DNA of 64,000 bases from Amycolatopsis acidiphila. GTDB lineage: Bacteria; Actinomycetota; Actinomycetes; Mycobacteriales; Pseudonocardiaceae. The translations under genes and the position numbers were made by a program. This document shows positions 4,411-11,293 of this stretch, piece after piece (positions within the stretch are counted from its first letter, which is position 1; each line of letters starts with the position of its first letter). The stretch covers positions 7,192,001-7,256,000 of the forward strand of contig NZ_CP090063.1 in NCBI RefSeq assembly GCF_021391495.1, given 5' to 3'. Below the pieces are notes generated by a model. It searched no databases. It was not told where the DNA came from and saw nothing but the letters and a program-made list of their open reading frames with translations.

Positions 4411-4486
4411 CATTGATCATTCCGTTCCGGCGCATTTCGTCCTAGCTTCGAAGGTGAAGCGAGAAACGAAATGCGAGGAGGCAGGA

Positions 4487-5626
4487 ATGAGTGGCCCCTT
4501 GGCCGGAATCCGGGTCATCGATCTGTCGACCGTGGTGATGGGCCCGTACGCCGCACAGATCCTGGGGGACCTGGGCGCCGACGTCATCAAGATCGAGTCA
4601 CCGGGTGACACCGCGCGGGTCGGGACCTACCAGCGCACCCCGGGCATGACCGCCCTGGCGCTGGCGGTCAACCGCAACAAGCGCAGCGTCGCCCTCAACC
4701 TCAAGGACGAGGAGCAGCGCGCGCAGGCACTGCGGCTGATCGACGGCGCGGACGCGCTGATCACGAACATGCGCCCCGGCGCGCTCGCGCGCCTCGGGCT
4801 GACCTACGAGCACGTCGCCGAGCGCAACCCCAAGCTGGTCTACGCGCACGCCCAGGGCTTCCGCGGCGACTCGCCGCTGGCCGGCAACGCCGCGTACGAC
4901 GAGACGATCCAGGCCTCTTCGGGCCTGGTCGACCTGACCAACCGCGCCGTGGGCAAGCCCGTGTACCTTCCGACCATCATCGGCGACAAGGTCTCCGCCC
5001 TGACCATCGCGTACTCGGTGCTCGCGGCGCTGCTGCACCAGCAGAAGACCGGCGAGGGCCAGTACGTCGAGATCCCGATGACCGACACGATGATCGCGTT
5101 CAACCTGGTCGAGCACCTGGCCGGGCGCACCTTCGAGCCGCCGACGGGAGCAACCGGGTTCGCCCTGTCGATGAGCGAGGGGCACCAGGCGGTGCCGACC
5201 AAGGACGGCCTGGCCTGCGTGATCCCGTACAACCCGCAGAACTTCCGCGACTTCTTCACCGCCGCGGGGCGCCCTGACCTGGCCGACGACCCGCGGGTGA
5301 ACGGCGACGCCATCGACCGGGCCGACACCGGCGCACTCAACGCGCTGATCGCGGAGTGCGCGCCCGAGTTGACCACCGAGGAGTGGGCCGAGGTCTGCGC
5401 CAAGCACAGCATTCCGTTCGCACCGGTGCTCGAACTGGATCACGCGGAAGAGGACCCCTACGTCGCGGCTGGAGGGCTGATCCAGCGGGTAGCACACCCG
5501 AGTGAAGGGCCGATCAAGACGGTCGGCATCCCGGTGCGGTTCTCCGCGACCCCGGCCGCCATCCGGCGGCTGCCGTCGCTGCCCGGCCAGGACACCGAAG
5601 AAGTGCTGAAGGAGCTGGACGCATGA
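4487..5626 (+). CDS. Class III (CaiB/BaiF) CoA-transferase
   Basis: A 379-residue family III CoA-transferase, the type that moves CoA between carboxylates through an aspartyl-CoA thioester. The N-terminus has GIRVIDLSTVVMGPYAAQ and DLGADVIKIE, characteristic of the family. The probable catalytic Asp is in IIGDKV near residue 167. The ATG at 4487 has a strong GAGGAGG site; an in-frame ATG or GTG upstream at ~4454 lacks one. Its stop overlaps the next start (ATGA), beginning a four-gene coupled operon that runs to 8386. The acyl substrate cannot be read from the sequence; the neighbours suggest a 3-oxo- or 3-hydroxyacyl-CoA route. Confidence 0.88.
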   Translation: MSGPLAGIRVIDLSTVVMGPYAAQILGDLGADVIKIESPGDTARVGTYQRTPGMTALALAVNRNKRSVALNLKDEEQRAQALRLIDGADALITNMRPGALARLGLTYEHVAERNPKLVYAHAQGFRGDSPLAGNAAYDETIQASSGLVDLTNRAVGKPVYLPTIIGDKVSALTIAYSVLAALLHQQKTGEGQYVEIPMTDTMIAFNLVEHLAGRTFEPPTGATGFALSMSEGHQAVPTKDGLACVIPYNPQNFRDFFTAAGRPDLADDPRVNGDAIDRADTGALNALIAECAPELTTEEWAEVCAKHSIPFAPVLELDHAEEDPYVAAGGLIQRVAHPSEGPIKTVGIPVRFSATPAAIRRLPSLPGQDTEEVLKELDA

Positions 5627-6366
5627 AGGCCGAAGACGTCCGACGCCGGCTGTCCACGCCGCTGACCGGCCCGGCGTTCCCGCCGATGAGCCCGCGGTTC
5701 ACCGATCGCGAGTACCTCAACATCGTCTACCGGACCGATCCCGAGGCGCTGCGGGCCGTCGTGCCGGAGCCGCTGGAGATCGGCGAGCCGCTGGTGCGCT
5801 TCGAGGTGATGCGGATGGGCGACGTCACCGGCTACGGCCCGTACACCGAGGCCGGGCAGGCGATCCCGGTGAGCTTCGAGGGCGAGCGGGGCGAGTACCT
5901 GCACGCGATGTACCTCGACAACTTCGCCGCGACCGCCTCCGGCCGGGAGGTCAGCGCGTACCCGAAGACCACCGGCTCGCCGCGGCTCTACGTCGACCAC
6001 GGCGCGCTCGTCGGCACCCTGGACTACGGCAGCCTCCGCGTCGCGACCGCGACCATGGGCTACCAGCACCGCGCGCTCGACCTCGACGAGGCCCGCGCGC
6101 AGATCACCGTGCCCACGTTCATGCTCAAGATCGTCCCCGGCTACACCGGCAGGCCACGGGTGTCCGAGCTGGTCCGCACCGAGATCACCGACGTCACCGT
6201 GAAGCAGGCCTGGACCGGGCCGGCGCGGCTGCAGCTGTTCGAGCACGTGCTCGCCCCGCTCGCCGACCTGCCGGTGCGTCAGATCGTGTCGGCCAGCCAC
6301 ATCCTGACCGACCTCACCCTCGCGCCGGTGCGCCCGGTGCACGACTACCTGAAGGAAACGTCATGA
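5623..6366 (+). CDS. Acetoacetate decarboxylase family protein
   Basis: A 247-residue protein of the acetoacetate decarboxylase fold. The Schiff-base lysine is visible in AYPKTTG at residue 115, the same number as in Clostridium Adc. Two features expected near the active site, the PEPLEIGEPLVRFEV stretch and an acidic residue before the lysine (REVSAYPK), are also present. It should decarboxylate a 3-oxo acid, or act as a related aldolase or hydratase-type member. It starts inside the stop of the CoA-transferase (ATGA) and ends inside the next start, so the proteins are probably made in fixed ratio. Free 3-oxo acid released from CoA by the upstream enzyme would be a natural substrate (inference). 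Confidence 0.88.
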   Translation: MKAEDVRRRLSTPLTGPAFPPMSPRFTDREYLNIVYRTDPEALRAVVPEPLEIGEPLVRFEVMRMGDVTGYGPYTEAGQAIPVSFEGERGEYLHAMYLDNFAATASGREVSAYPKTTGSPRLYVDHGALVGTLDYGSLRVATATMGYQHRALDLDEARAQITVPTFMLKIVPGYTGRPRVSELVRTEITDVTVKQAWTGPARLQLFEHVLAPLADLPVRQIVSASHILTDLTLAPVRPVHDYLKETS

Positions 6367-7217
6367 AGATCGCCGTCATCGGGGCCGGCACGATCGGCCT
6401 GTCGTGGACGAAGCTGTTCGCCGACCACGGCCACGACGTGCGCGTGAGCGACCCGCGTGCCGACCTCGCCGATGTGCTGCGCGAGTTCGACCCGGCGCGG
6501 GTGCGTGCGGCGGCCGACCTGGCCGACGCGGTGCGCGACGCGGACGTGGTGCAGGAGAACGGGCCCGAGAACCTGGAGTTCAAGAAGGACCTGTTCGCCA
6601 CCCTCGTCGAGCAGGCACCGCGGCACGCCCTGTTGCTCAGCTCCTCGAGCGCGATCCCCGCCGGCGCGTTCGCGCCGGCGGACGGTGAGCGCGTGCTGAT
6701 CGGGCACCCGTTCAACCCGCCGCACGTGCTCCCGCTGGTCGAGGTCGTGCCCAGTGAGCGCACGTCCGAGGACTCCGTCCGCCGTGCGGTCGAGTTCTAC
6801 CGCTCGCTGGGCCGGACTCCGGTGGTGGAGCACAAGGAGGTGCCCGGCTTCGTCGGCAACCGCCTCCAGGCCGCGTTGCAGCGTGAGGCGGTTTCCCTGG
6901 TACAGCAAGGAGTCGTGAGCCCGGCCGAGCTGGACGCAGTGGTCGTCAACTCGCTCGGCCCGCGGTGGGCGACTGTCGGCCCGTTCCTGGGCGCGCACCT
7001 GGGCGGCGGCCCCGGCGGCTACCGCCACCTCACCAGTCACATCGGGTCGTCGATGAGCAACCTGTCGGTTGGCAAGCCCGACACCAGCCCGGAAGCGACC
7101 GAACGCGTCGTCGAGGCCGTCGAGCAGGCGTACGGCGACAAGTCGTACGAGGAGCTCGCCGAAGCCCGCGACCGCACCCAGCTCGCCATCCTTTCCGTGA
7201 CAGGAGAAGAGAAATGA
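6363..7217 (+). CDS. 3-hydroxyacyl-CoA dehydrogenase family NAD-dependent oxidoreductase
   Basis: A 284-residue protein with an N-terminal Rossmann motif (IGAGTIGLSW) and the family segments SSSSAIPAG, GHPFNPPHVLPLVEVV and GFVGNRLQ. The His in GHPFNPP is the catalytic one in this family. The length matches single-domain hydroxybutyryl-CoA, L-carnitine and lambda-crystallin-type dehydrogenases rather than the large fused FadB. A carnitine dehydrogenase or L-gulonate-type role cannot be excluded. It overlaps the genes on both sides by four bases (ATGA). Confidence 0.85.
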   Translation: MKIAVIGAGTIGLSWTKLFADHGHDVRVSDPRADLADVLREFDPARVRAAADLADAVRDADVVQENGPENLEFKKDLFATLVEQAPRHALLLSSSSAIPAGAFAPADGERVLIGHPFNPPHVLPLVEVVPSERTSEDSVRRAVEFYRSLGRTPVVEHKEVPGFVGNRLQAALQREAVSLVQQGVVSPAELDAVVVNSLGPRWATVGPFLGAHLGGGPGGYRHLTSHIGSSMSNLSVGKPDTSPEATERVVEAVEQAYGDKSYEELAEARDRTQLAILSVTGEEK

Positions 7218-8386
7218 CCACTGCCGACTTCTACGGCTACGAGGACCTGCTCGCCGAGGAAGAGCGCAAGATCCTCTACAGGGCACGGGACTTCCTGCAG
7301 GCCGAGGTGCAGCCGCTCGTCAACGAGTACTGGGCCAAGGGCGAGTTCCCGCGGGAGCTGATCCGGAAGTTCCAGGAGCTGAACCTGGCGGGCGTGGCCT
7401 ACGAGGGCTACGGCGACCCGCTGCCGCGCGGGAGCCACCTGCTGACCGGCATGCTCGCGATGGAGTACAGCCGCACCGATCCGTCCGTGGCCACGTTCTT
7501 CGGTGTCCACAACGGACTCGCGATGTACAGCGTGTACGCCGGCGGCGACCAGGAGCAGCGCGACCGCTGGCTGCCGGCGATGGCCGCCATGGACAAGATC
7601 GGCGCGTTCGCGATGACCGAGCCGCTCGGCGGTTCCGACGTCGCGGGCGGCATGCGCACCACCGCGAAGCGCGAAGGCGACACCTGGGTGCTCAACGGCG
7701 CGAAGCGCTGGATCGGCAATGCCACGTTCGCGGACCTGGTGATCGTGTGGGCGCGCGACGTGGACGACAACAAGGTCAAGGGCTTCGTCGTCGAGAAGGG
7801 CACGCCCGGGTTCTCCCCGGTCAAGATCGAGCACAAGGTCGCGTTCCGGATCGTGGAGAACGCCGAGATCACGCTCACCGGCGTGCGGGTGCCCGAGGCC
7901 AACCGGCTGCAGAACATCAACGGCTTCCGGGACGTCGCCGAGATCCTCCGCGCCACTCGCGGCGGCGTGGCCTGGCAGGCGCTCGGCGTGATGACCGGCG
8001 CCTACGAGCTCGCGCTCGCCTATGCCAAGGAGCGCAAGCAGTTCGGCCGTCCGATCGCGAGGTTCCAGCTCGTGCAGGACCTGCTGGTGAAGAGCCTCGG
8101 TAACATCACCGCGTCATGGGGCATGCTGGTGCAGCTGGCCAGGCTGCAGGACTCGGGCATCTTCCGGGACGAGCAGTCGTCGCTGGCGAAGGCGTTCGTC
8201 ACCTCGCGGATGCGCGAGGTCGTGGCCTGGTGCCGCGAGATCTTCGGCGGCAACGGGATCGTGCTCGACTACGACATCGCCCGCTTCTTCGCGGACGCGG
8301 AGGCCATCTACTCCTTCGAGGGCACCCGAGAGATGAACACGCTGATCGTCGGTAAGTCAATAACCGGCGAAAGTGCCTTCGTTTAG
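7214..8386 (+). CDS. Acyl-CoA dehydrogenase (glutaryl-CoA-dehydrogenase-like)
   Basis: A 390-residue FAD enzyme. The FAD/substrate segment AFAMTEPLGGSDVAGG and the C-terminal EGTREMN with catalytic Glu near residue 370 are present. ERKQFGRPIARFQLVQ and EIFGGNGI are also standard. The ATG at 7214 overlaps the previous stop. It is the last gene of the CoA-transferase operon and would introduce or use a 2,3-double bond in the acyl-CoA intermediate. YSFEGTREMN and GGNGI resemble glutaryl-CoA and short branched-chain dehydrogenases more than long-chain ones. No terminator with a T-run follows. Confidence 0.9.
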   Translation: MTTADFYGYEDLLAEEERKILYRARDFLQAEVQPLVNEYWAKGEFPRELIRKFQELNLAGVAYEGYGDPLPRGSHLLTGMLAMEYSRTDPSVATFFGVHNGLAMYSVYAGGDQEQRDRWLPAMAAMDKIGAFAMTEPLGGSDVAGGMRTTAKREGDTWVLNGAKRWIGNATFADLVIVWARDVDDNKVKGFVVEKGTPGFSPVKIEHKVAFRIVENAEITLTGVRVPEANRLQNINGFRDVAEILRATRGGVAWQALGVMTGAYELALAYAKERKQFGRPIARFQLVQDLLVKSLGNITASWGMLVQLARLQDSGIFRDEQSSLAKAFVTSRMREVVAWCREIFGGNGIVLDYDIARFFADAEAIYSFEGTREMNTLIVGKSITGESAFV

Positions 8387-8419
8387 GAGAAATCACAACT
8401 AGATAACTGATTGCAACGA

Positions 8420-8466
8420 AATCCCCCTTCTAGGCGAAAAGGGAACATACGCCTAAAAGGGGGATT
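8420..8466 (+). promoter_or_regulatory. Long hairpin covering the ribosome site of the LGFP/sugar dehydrogenase gene
   Basis: Two 17-base arms, 8420-8436 and 8450-8466, pair with a single mismatch around a 13-base loop. The right arm contains the AAGGGGG Shine-Dalgarno (8457-8463) of the ATG at 8468. The loop carries AAAAGGG (8437-8443), which can pair instead with CCCTT of the left arm (8425-8429) and would release the ribosome site. No U-tract follows, so this looks like translational or operator control, not termination. Confidence 0.6.
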
Positions 8467-8467
8467 C

Positions 8468-11293
8468 ATGATCAGACAGTGGTCAAGGCGAGGGATGGCC
8501 GCCCTGGTCGTCACCCTGTTGGCGACAGTCGGCCTGGTGGCCACGCCGCAGGCGACGGCCGCACCCGCGGTGCCGTCCGGGTTCGTCATCCGCGAGCAGG
8601 CGACCGGCCAGGCGGCCTACGACCTGACCGACTTCGGCTACCTGCCCGGCGACGGCGGCATCATCACCACCGGCAAGGGCGGCAAGGTCACCTGGATCTC
8701 CCCCGCCGGCGCGGTCCGCACCCTCACCACGCTCGCCGTCAACAACGAGGGCGACCTCGGCCTGGTCGGCCTCGCCGTCGCCCCCGACTACGCGAGCACG
8801 CACCACGTCTACGTCGTGCGGTCGGTGCGCACGAGCACCGGCACGAACTTCCGGCTCGCCCGCTGGACGGTCACCGGCTCCCCCGAACCCACCGGCCTCG
8901 GCAGCGAGCAGGTCCTGCTCGAACTGCCGATGACCTTCAACGTGCACGGGATGACCGGGGTGGTCGCCGGGGACGACGGGACGCTCTGGGTCTCCATCGG
9001 CGACAGCTCCGAGTTCCGCCACGGGTTCTACGACCCACGCGCGCTGCGGGCCCTGGACGTCGACCAGCTCTACGGCAAGATCCTGCACCTCACCGCGGAC
9101 GGCGCCGGGGTGGCGGGCAACCCCTACTACCAGGCGGCGAACCCGAACTCCGCGCGCAGCAAGGTGTTCGCGAGCGGGTTCCGCAGCCCGTTCCGACTCG
9201 CGCTCGACCCGAGCAGCGGTCTGCCGGTCGTCGGCGACGTCGGCTGGGAGACCTGGGAAGAGCTCGACATCGTCCAGCCGGGCCGCAACTACGCCTGGCC
9301 CTGCTGGGAGGGCAACCACCAGACCGGGTACGCCACCCAGTTCCCCGCCGAATGCGGGCCGGTGTCGAACCAGGCCCCGATCTGGGAGTACCACCACGGC
9401 GGCGCGGTCGACCAGGGCAACAGCGTCACCGGCGGGTTCGTCTACACCGGCAAGAGCTATCCCGCGTCGTACCAGGGCACCTACTTCTTCGGCGACTACC
9501 AGGGCGAGAAGCTCTGGACGCTGCGGTACGACAGCACCGGCAAGCTGACCCAGGCGCCGCAGAACCCGCCATGGGCCACCGGGATCGGCGGGCCCGTCGA
9601 GTTCGCGGCCGCGCCGAACGGCGACGTGGTGTTCGCGGACCTGATCTCGGGGAACCTGAAGCGGGTCAGCTACCAGCAGGGCAACATCGCGCCGATCGCG
9701 CAGGCGACCAGCACGACGAACGCCGAGACCCGGACCGTCGCCTTCGACGGCTCGGACTCGCTGGACTACGACGGCGACCTGCTCACCTACAGCTGGGACT
9801 TCGGCGACGGGACGACCGGGAGCGGCAAGACCGTCTCCCACACCTACGCCGCCGGCGCGAGCCGGTTCACCGCGACGCTCACCGTGCGGGACCCGCTCGG
9901 CGCGACCGGCACCACGCAGCTGACGGTGGCGCCGTCCAACCACTCCCCGCAGCTGACCCTGACGCCGCCGCCGAGCGACACGTACGCCGTCGGCGAGCAG
10001 ATCAGCCTGGCGGCGACGGCGACCGACGCCGAGGACGGCGCATTGGCGGTCGAGTGGACCAGCCGTGAGCTGCACTGCCCGGACGACACGACCTGCCACT
10101 CGCATCCCGGCGTCGGCGCGACCGGGTCGACGTTCACCGTGCCGTTCCCCGACCACCCCGACACCCAGCTGCTGATCACCGCGACGGTGGCCGACAGCGC
10201 GGGCGTCACGGCGAGCCAGACCTACACCGCCTCACCGCGGCAGCACCGGCTCACCCTCAGCTCGGCCGTGCCGGCGGCGCTGCAGATCCCGTCCGAGAAC
10301 AACGCGAACACCGCGATGGTGACCGAAGGCGTGACGCTCGACGTGCAGGCCGCGGCAACGGCGAGCGACGGCGCTTCGACGTTCACGGCCTGGGCCGACG
10401 GGCCCACGGAGCGGATCCGCACCCTGAAGATGCCCGCGACGGACCTGACCCTGTCGGCGGTCTACGCGACGCCGATCGAGCAGCGGTACAACTCCGACGC
10501 CGCACTGCGGCAGAGCCTCGGCGCGCCGACCGCGCCCGAGGTGTCCGACGGCGGCCTGCGCTACCGCGTGTACGAGAAGGGCCGCCTGTACTGGTCGCAG
10601 CAGACCGGGGTGCACGAGGTGCACGGCCAGATCCTGGCGAAGTACCTCGCGCTCGGCGGGCACGCGAAGTTCGGCGCGCCGACCACCGACGAGACGACCA
10701 CGCCGGACGGCACCGGCAAGTACAACCACTTCGTCGGCACACCCGGCACGGGCACGGCCTCGGTGTACTTCACCGGAGCCACCGGCGCCCACGGCATCTG
10801 GGGCCTGATCCGGGACAAGTGGACCGAGCTGCGCCGGGAGCAGGGCCCGCTGGGCTACCCCACGACCGACGAGCAGACGACGCCGGACGGTGTCGGCCGG
10901 TACAACCACTTCAGCAAGGCCGCCTCGATCTACTGGACCCCGGCGACCGGTGCGCACGGTGTCTGGGGCGCCATCCGGGGGACCTGGCAGGCGACGGGCT
11001 GGGAGGCGGGTCCCGCGGGCTATCCGACGACCGACGAGCTGACCACGCCGGACGGCGTGGGCCGGTACAACCACTTCAGCAAGGCCGCCTCGATCTATTG
11101 GTCGCCCGGCACGGGCGCACACGAGGTCTACGGCGCGATCCGGGCGCGGTGGTCGGCGCTGGGCTGGGAGCGGTCGTACCTCGGCTATCCGCGCTCGGGC
11201 GAGTTCGGCTTCGACGGCGGGCGGCGCAACGACTTCCAGTTCGGTTACATCCAGTGGTACCCGAACGGGACGGTGATCGACCACCGCTGGTGA
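8468..11293 (+). CDS. Secreted glucose/sorbosone dehydrogenase-like protein with PKD and LGFP repeats
   Basis: A 941-residue exported protein. A twin-Arg-like or Sec signal peptide occupies residues 1-33 (RRGMAALVVTLLATVG, cut near TAA|APA). Residues ~40-408 resemble the soluble PQQ-type glucose/sorbosone dehydrogenase propeller (VVGDVGWETWEELDIV, NYAWPCWEGNH). A PKD domain spans ~411-491 (YSWDFGDGTTG). An Ig-like linker is followed by four or five LGFP units from ~674 to the end (YPTTDE, YNHF, SIYW, GAHGVWG). The ATG at 8468 is chosen for its AAGGGGG site; an in-frame TTG at 8411 would add 19 residues before the signal. LGFP tails suggest cell-wall retention. It converges on the RpiR gene with one base between them. 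The sugar substrate is unknown. Confidence 0.87.
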   Translation: MIRQWSRRGMAALVVTLLATVGLVATPQATAAPAVPSGFVIREQATGQAAYDLTDFGYLPGDGGIITTGKGGKVTWISPAGAVRTLTTLAVNNEGDLGLVGLAVAPDYASTHHVYVVRSVRTSTGTNFRLARWTVTGSPEPTGLGSEQVLLELPMTFNVHGMTGVVAGDDGTLWVSIGDSSEFRHGFYDPRALRALDVDQLYGKILHLTADGAGVAGNPYYQAANPNSARSKVFASGFRSPFRLALDPSSGLPVVGDVGWETWEELDIVQPGRNYAWPCWEGNHQTGYATQFPAECGPVSNQAPIWEYHHGGAVDQGNSVTGGFVYTGKSYPASYQGTYFFGDYQGEKLWTLRYDSTGKLTQAPQNPPWATGIGGPVEFAAAPNGDVVFADLISGNLKRVSYQQGNIAPIAQATSTTNAETRTVAFDGSDSLDYDGDLLTYSWDFGDGTTGSGKTVSHTYAAGASRFTATLTVRDPLGATGTTQLTVAPSNHSPQLTLTPPPSDTYAVGEQISLAATATDAEDGALAVEWTSRELHCPDDTTCHSHPGVGATGSTFTVPFPDHPDTQLLITATVADSAGVTASQTYTASPRQHRLTLSSAVPAALQIPSENNANTAMVTEGVTLDVQAAATASDGASTFTAWADGPTERIRTLKMPATDLTLSAVYATPIEQRYNSDAALRQSLGAPTAPEVSDGGLRYRVYEKGRLYWSQQTGVHEVHGQILAKYLALGGHAKFGAPTTDETTTPDGTGKYNHFVGTPGTGTASVYFTGATGAHGIWGLIRDKWTELRREQGPLGYPTTDEQTTPDGVGRYNHFSKAASIYWTPATGAHGVWGAIRGTWQATGWEAGPAGYPTTDELTTPDGVGRYNHFSKAASIYWSPGTGAHEVYGAIRARWSALGWERSYLGYPRSGEFGFDGGRRNDFQFGYIQWYPNGTVIDHRW
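10880..11101 (+). repeat. Near-identical 57-bp direct repeats within LGFP units
   Basis: 10880-10936 and 11045-11101 match at 54 of 57 bases and lie 165 bases apart, exactly one 55-codon LGFP unit. The similarity exceeds what protein conservation alone would need, indicating a recent tandem duplication or gene conversion. Confidence 0.85.

Follow-up and report, generated by a model that had tools for sequence, protein, structure and literature searches.

Directly upstream of the gene studied here, a predicted ECF-type promoter is buried in the inverted repeat that, when transcribed in full, would fold over the gene's own Shine-Dalgarno (SD) sequence, and we consider it likely that translation is gated by this arrangement, such that only RNA begun at this promoter would present an open SD. 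Our confidence is higher in the architecture, a promoter inside an SD-hiding hairpin, than in the mechanism, for which we infer the start site, the sigma factor, the RNA arriving from upstream, and the effect on translation. The features of the DNA that underlie the proposal are the hairpin, a promoter motif conserved together with its spacing, pairing that is kept while the arms change, and the tie between this pairing and loci that have an SD leader.

The gene occupies 8468..11293 on the + strand of the window, which is the whole 64,000-nt stretch of DNA that was analyzed. An earlier interpretation made from the letters alone (the sequence-only reading) had called it a secreted LGFP/dehydrogenase gene, and Pfam agreed on the domains, with a glucose/sorbosone dehydrogenase domain (PF07995), a PKD domain (PF18911/PF00801), and four stretches of LGFP repeats (PF08310); the N-terminus, judged by eye, indicates that the product is probably secreted. 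The hairpin described in the same reading at 8420..8466, with 17-base arms and one mismatch, was recovered by folding: positions 8420-8429 and 8431-8436 pair with 8450-8455 and 8457-8466, giving 10 + 6 bp on either side of the mismatch, and the left arm (8420..8436, + strand) and right arm (8450..8466, + strand) enclose a 13-nt loop (8437-8449). The minimum free energy of 8410-8490 is −30.9 kcal/mol (z −5.48), and none of 200 dinucleotide shuffles was equally stable. The SD, AAGGGGG (8457..8463, + strand), lies entirely within the right arm, 4 nt 5′ of the ATG at 8468, and is thus buried as had been claimed; in the folding model, a long transcript carrying both arms should be translationally off. 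The arm pattern, ATCCCCCTT-N10-40-AAGGGGGAT, which is readable on both strands because it is self-complementary, occurs a single time in the 8.18-Mb genome. A DNA search with the 81-nt leader returned one 14-base match (E 6.98) besides its own site, and plasmid records gave no match. A translated upstream extension of the coding sequence, beginning at an in-frame TTG at 8411, was considered and rejected: although the reading frame stays open 5′ of the gene across the genus, inspection revealed no common start codon there.

To describe the promoter, 105 regions upstream of orthologs and close paralogs were used (45, plus 60 chosen from a listing with matches in at least 132 of 390 family genomes). 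The pattern [GT]nAA[CT]-N16-[GTC]CGA, which was first spotted by eye in some of these regions and then searched for, is present in 89 of the 105 regions, compared with 0 to 8 for the other spacings between 12 and 20 and with 1.9/105 expected when the mononucleotides are shuffled; of 1155 control windows taken farther upstream, 36 have it. A slightly wider pattern takes in 94 of the 105 regions, from 13 genera; among these, the −35 reads GCAAC in 46, GAAAC in 21, GCAAT in 14, and other forms in 13, and the −10 reads GCGAT in 28, GCGAA in 22, GCGAC in 20, and other forms in 24. At the gene under study, which has GCAACG and CGAA, the −35 element GCAAC lies at 8413..8417 and the −10 element GCGAA at 8434..8438, both on the + strand, and judged by its sequence, this GCAAC-N16-GCGAA arrangement is the layout of an ECF sigma factor promoter. 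Since the two elements are conserved around a 16-nt spacer, the left arm of the hairpin sits mostly within that spacer (8418-8433) and reaches into the −10; the right arm is wholly inside the predicted short 5′ leader. The closest described counterparts that we compared are the SigD promoters of C. glutamicum, given in the excerpts consulted as −35 GTAAC(A/G) and −10 GAT, with hypothetical secreted proteins among the reported targets (PMC6338062); the excerpt of PMC4821874 contains no SigD consensus. As far as the former source describes the SigD regulon, its promoters share with those examined here the ECF type, an AAC in the −35, and a GA in the −10 (PMC6338062), but here the elements are mostly GCAAC, GAAAC, or GCAAT and CGAN, and a GTAAC −35 occurs in 6 of the 94 loci.

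Just 5′ of the −35, a conserved block, ATCACA-N5-ATAACT (8392..8408, + strand), has invariant AT.AC and TAAC columns in the 16-genome alignment and is possibly an activator site. Counterparts occupy the same position in L145-L159, and many g16 and g15 loci have another form, which in g16 reads, by eye, GGTCACA...ATAA...TTCACTC. The block is reminiscent of tandem response-regulator sites; for MtrA, the consulted part of one source reports a GTCACAgcg motif (PMC2945938).

The distance between the −10 and the start codon suggests where transcription may begin. In 20 loci from six genera (g15, g21, g25, g34, g41, and g44; e.g., L166, L173, and L181), the start codon follows the CGA by 9-10 nt, near the expected RNA start, so the mRNAs of these loci are probably leaderless. 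Applied to the gene under study, the same distance puts the start at ~8447-8448, and the purine-rich position CGA+7 corresponds to 8444 (among the 70 leadered loci, purines are found at CGA+7 in 52 and at CGA+10 in 61); both estimates fall in the loop and delimit a predicted transcription start zone of 8444..8448 on the + strand. The gene's own mRNA is accordingly predicted to start in the hairpin loop, in which case it would lack the left arm and its SD would be free. Opening the SD is predicted to cost 14.6 kcal/mol when the left arm is part of the RNA, 0.3 kcal/mol when the RNA begins at the predicted start, and 0.4-0.6 kcal/mol for any start between 8440 and 8451. In these predictions, the block arises when the 5′ end of the RNA is before ~8424, and shifting that end from 8415 to 8430 lowers the cost from 15.5 to 0.1 kcal/mol. 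The difference recurs among relatives, with median opening costs for long versus short RNA of 18.0 versus 4.9 kcal/mol in 16 loci of the genus (g1) and 11.3 versus 4.3 kcal/mol in 47 g16 loci; of the 64 loci in g1, g16, and g19, 61 have an SD that is predicted to be harder to open in the long RNA, 52 of them by at least 3 kcal/mol, and the gain is below 3 kcal/mol in 12.

The sequence-only reading had taken the hairpin for a two-state translational switch and had named a transcript start downstream of 8436 as one observation that would refute it. For the mRNA of the gene itself, the conserved promoter predicts just such a start, so the two states are more likely two transcripts than two folds of one RNA, and the two-state idea is kept in this altered form. 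In its classical form, a switchable leader would be a single RNA starting 5′ of 8420 whose hairpin is opened by a protein, a small RNA, a ligand, or heat. Such a leader would be off by default, as the fold here is predicted to be, it would suit a hairpin found in all of the genus orthologs (16/16), and the conserved upstream block might belong to another promoter. We nevertheless find it unlikely, on several grounds. The loop sequence AAAAGGG (8437-8443), which had been proposed to compete for the left arm and so to free the SD, overlaps the A of the promoter −10, a loop AAAGGG is kept in only 2 of the 16 genus orthologs, and when the SD is constrained to stay unpaired, the best fold reaches −16.8 kcal/mol versus −30.9 kcal/mol (37 °C). 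The suggestion of an RNA thermometer found no support either, given that freeing the SD is predicted to cost 18.8 kcal/mol at 20 °C, 15.9 kcal/mol at 37 °C, and still 12.9 kcal/mol at 55 °C, a temperature at which the hairpin stays unmelted in prediction, and Rfam 15 gave 0 matches at the gathering score in the 64,000-nt window. In addition, the ECF motif with its 16-nt spacing would place the start in the loop and is also found at the 20 loci that have no excess spacer pairing, by which the promoter motif is not part of the hairpin, and the arms differ among clusters, with nothing in common, by eye, beyond the promoter elements and a G-rich SD.

In support of promoter-gated translation, the reading that we prefer, the predicted pairing is kept across several clusters despite changed arm sequence. 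In g16, at least three further arm families were found, e.g., TGGCCCCCC with GGGGGGCCA, CCCCGTTTCCGGCG with CCGGAAGTGGGG, and CCCCGTCGA with TCGACTGGGG. For a swap test, the 70 SD-leader loci were clustered and one representative was taken for each of 13 clusters: the clusters' own spacer-leader duplexes average −20.0 kcal/mol versus −14.8 kcal/mol (sd 1.0) when partners are permuted, and 0 of 20,000 permutations were as good, with foreign partners pairing equally well on at least one side in 5 of the 13 clusters (g26, L163, L237, L239, and L240). Pairing also follows the leader class: of the 70 SD-leader loci, 54 have a spacer that pairs at z < −2 with the 30 nt after it, and of the 20 loci whose start codon lies 9-10 nt from the CGA, none does; the classes cover the regions with the motif, setting aside 11 of the 105, the contrast sets aside 4 motif loci with other leader lengths, and for five loci the start codon was reassigned manually on inspection. 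In five g26 loci, the hairpin is absent (median z 0.5) although the motif and an SD leader are both present.

These comparisons bear on the reading that the motif is spurious and that the pairing arises when C-rich spacers meet G-rich SDs in GC-rich genomes. Permuted left and right partners do still pair at about −15 kcal/mol, the motif was first noticed by eye within part of the set in which it was counted, and the bare pattern is hardly enriched genome-wide, yet own pairing is about 5 permutation sds better than permuted pairing, the spacing of 16 stands at 89/105 versus at most 8 for any other, and the leader classes split 54/70 versus 0/20, so that we regard a chance origin as very improbable. 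The genome-wide scan covered GCAAC −35 forms with ATG starts in the gene's own genome and in one g16 genome (G323), and the GTAAC form in the own genome only. Against reversed controls, the GCAAC pattern occurred 29 versus 19 times in the own genome and 26 versus 29 times in G323, and the rarer GTAAC form 12 versus 1 times in the own genome. Three of the 41 own-genome matches have z < −2, namely the studied locus L274 (−7.1) and L257 and L282 (−2.27), and none of the other 40 shows comparable pairing (best z −2.27 versus −7.1). In G323, three of the 26 matches have z < −2 (L300, −5.9; L290, −3.2; and L295, −3.2), and L300 and L290 are the two copies of the gene family studied here. These results point to a device of this gene family more than to one used by a whole regulon. 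The gene is often present in g16 as tandem or separate paralogs (e.g., L165/L171, L200/L219, and L221/L229) with inverted repeats in their promoters that differ in sequence. One own-genome locus, L253 (G000:C1:663252-663295), has GCAAC-N16-GCGA followed, ahead of an ATG, by an SD-like AAGGGGGA and falls outside the five best spacer-leader pairings; it is possibly a further target of the same sigma factor.

Within the genus, an ortholog was found in 16 of 19 genomes, and a hairpin over the SD stands directly upstream in all 16, the weakest being those of L148 and L155, of which L155 is lowest with an opening cost of 5.2 kcal/mol. When the helix is laid over the alignment, 90.8% of its cells are paired (22/240 unpaired) versus 37.5-62.1% when it is slid; G-U pairs account for 14 of the 240 cells, and two-sided changes for 2 pairs and 6 cells. 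Conservation of pairing in relatives, the absence of which the sequence-only reading had named as refuting, is seen in the well-kept helix of the genus, but covariation there is not significant: none of five measures beats shuffles (59 to 498 of 500 do at least as well), in a count that covered the genus, the helices of the other clusters having been aligned. Genus covariation by itself does not decide the question. Its lack of significance is compatible with a DNA operator, i.e., an inverted repeat around the start that is bound by a dimeric repressor and whose folding as RNA is incidental, as are the fairly constant arms within the genus and the position of the repeat over the −10 and the predicted start, where operators usually lie. 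An operator is nonetheless quite improbable in our judgment, since in other clusters it is the self-complementarity that is kept and not the sequence, the right arm coincides with the SD, the G-U pairs counted in the genus would leave mismatches in a DNA repeat, and the pairing is missing in the 20 loci that have no SD leader.

If translation is gated by the promoter, there should be RNA from upstream to be silenced. Four abutting, co-directional genes (4454..8386, + strand; ORFs and Pfam) precede the leader, assigned by Pfam to CoA-transferase III, acetoacetate decarboxylase, 3-hydroxyacyl-CoA dehydrogenase, and acyl-CoA dehydrogenase, and the last of them ends 81 nt before the start codon. 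A scan of 8000-8700 found neither an intrinsic terminator or attenuator (stem plus U tract) on the + strand nor any sigma-70-type promoter-like site, all terminator-like sites there being on the − strand. With co-directional acyl-CoA genes 81 nt upstream and no + strand terminator-like site between, read-through into the gene is plausible. On the − strand at 8422-8445, the antisense of the left arm and loop itself fits a terminator-like pattern. Nine of the 16 genus loci have the tail of an acyl-CoA dehydrogenase gene 80-86 nt upstream and the remaining 7 yielded no such tail, so the leader appears to travel with the downstream gene; in L151, L155, and L157, what look by eye like degraded traces of the 3′ end of acyl-CoA dehydrogenase lie upstream of the leader. 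In line with read-through, median hairpin strength is 21.2 kcal/mol in the 9 loci with this gene upstream versus 13.2 kcal/mol in the 7 without it (p 0.002), and the difference holds after dereplication (6 versus 7 loci, p 0.007), in a comparison that is post hoc and small and whose statistics ignore kinship. Across genera, the direction of the upstream gene was mixed and did not clearly predict the hairpin, on crude gene calls that missed several of the genus acyl-CoA dehydrogenases.

We propose the following course of events. RNA entering from upstream, whether by read-through from the acyl-CoA operon or from any other upstream promoter, would carry both arms and fold, hiding the SD. RNA polymerase with an ECF-type (SigD-like) sigma factor would recognize GCAAC-N16-GCGAA, and with the −10 at the top of the hairpin, its RNA would begin in the loop, lack the left arm, and leave the SD open, such that the dehydrogenase/LGFP protein would be made only upon firing of the ECF promoter. 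Leaderless relatives would need no hairpin, because a leaderless translation start depends on the AUG being the 5′ end of the mRNA. We are about evenly divided over the broader proposal that gating of translation by the promoter is a general logic among bacterial chromosomal genes and that, in this one probably secreted protein family of the Pseudonocardiaceae, two interchangeable designs, a leaderless start and an SD-complementary spacer that silences read-through RNA, tie translation to the cognate ECF promoter, the spacer having been rebuilt from new sequence in several clusters.

Promoter spacers are commonly regarded as free to change, and here the spacer appears to have a second job, pairing with the gene's own SD, which would stop stray transcription from yielding protein; a read-through signal over such genes in RNA-seq need not equal expression. 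If confirmed, the arrangement would bring a device of phages and transposons into ordinary chromosomal regulation, would provide a rule by which any genome can be scanned (promoter elements enclosed by an inverted repeat that hides the SD), and would offer a reason why leaderless starts may pay, as they would be promoter-specific without a hairpin. No chromosomal ECF example of the promoter-in-hairpin design was found among the open-access papers searched.

Among known systems, SD-hiding RNA thermometers and riboswitches likewise bury the SD in the 3′ strand of a hairpin stem, but here there is no Rfam match, no conserved alternative fold, and a very high predicted stability, and the on-state would be a separate transcript. 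Related in logic are the transposase genes of IS10 and IS50, in which read-in transcripts fold over the ribosome-binding site (RBS) and the element's own transcript does not; the protection from impinging transcription would be shared, whereas IS10 and IS50 are mobile elements whose repeat is the end of the element and the present case is a chromosomal gene. The closest parallels are T4 gene e (lysozyme) and I-TevI, for which the excerpts consulted describe longer early transcripts that fold over the RBS and late promoters adjoining the RBS, whose transcripts lack the 5′ portion of that structure and are translated; the RBSs of soc and other T4 genes are hidden too (PMC3014915, PMC2988022). 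Going by those excerpts, longer transcripts with a hidden RBS are common to both, here by prediction; in T4, the late promoter lies in the 5′ arm of the hairpin, a placement that the sequence suggests here. The T4 cases rest on experiments and concern phage genes read with a late sigma factor of the phage, whereas the present case is predicted for a gene on a bacterial chromosome, has an ECF-type promoter, and recurs in several actinobacterial sequence clusters. By this analogy, the gene seems designed along the lines of T4 gene e and I-TevI.
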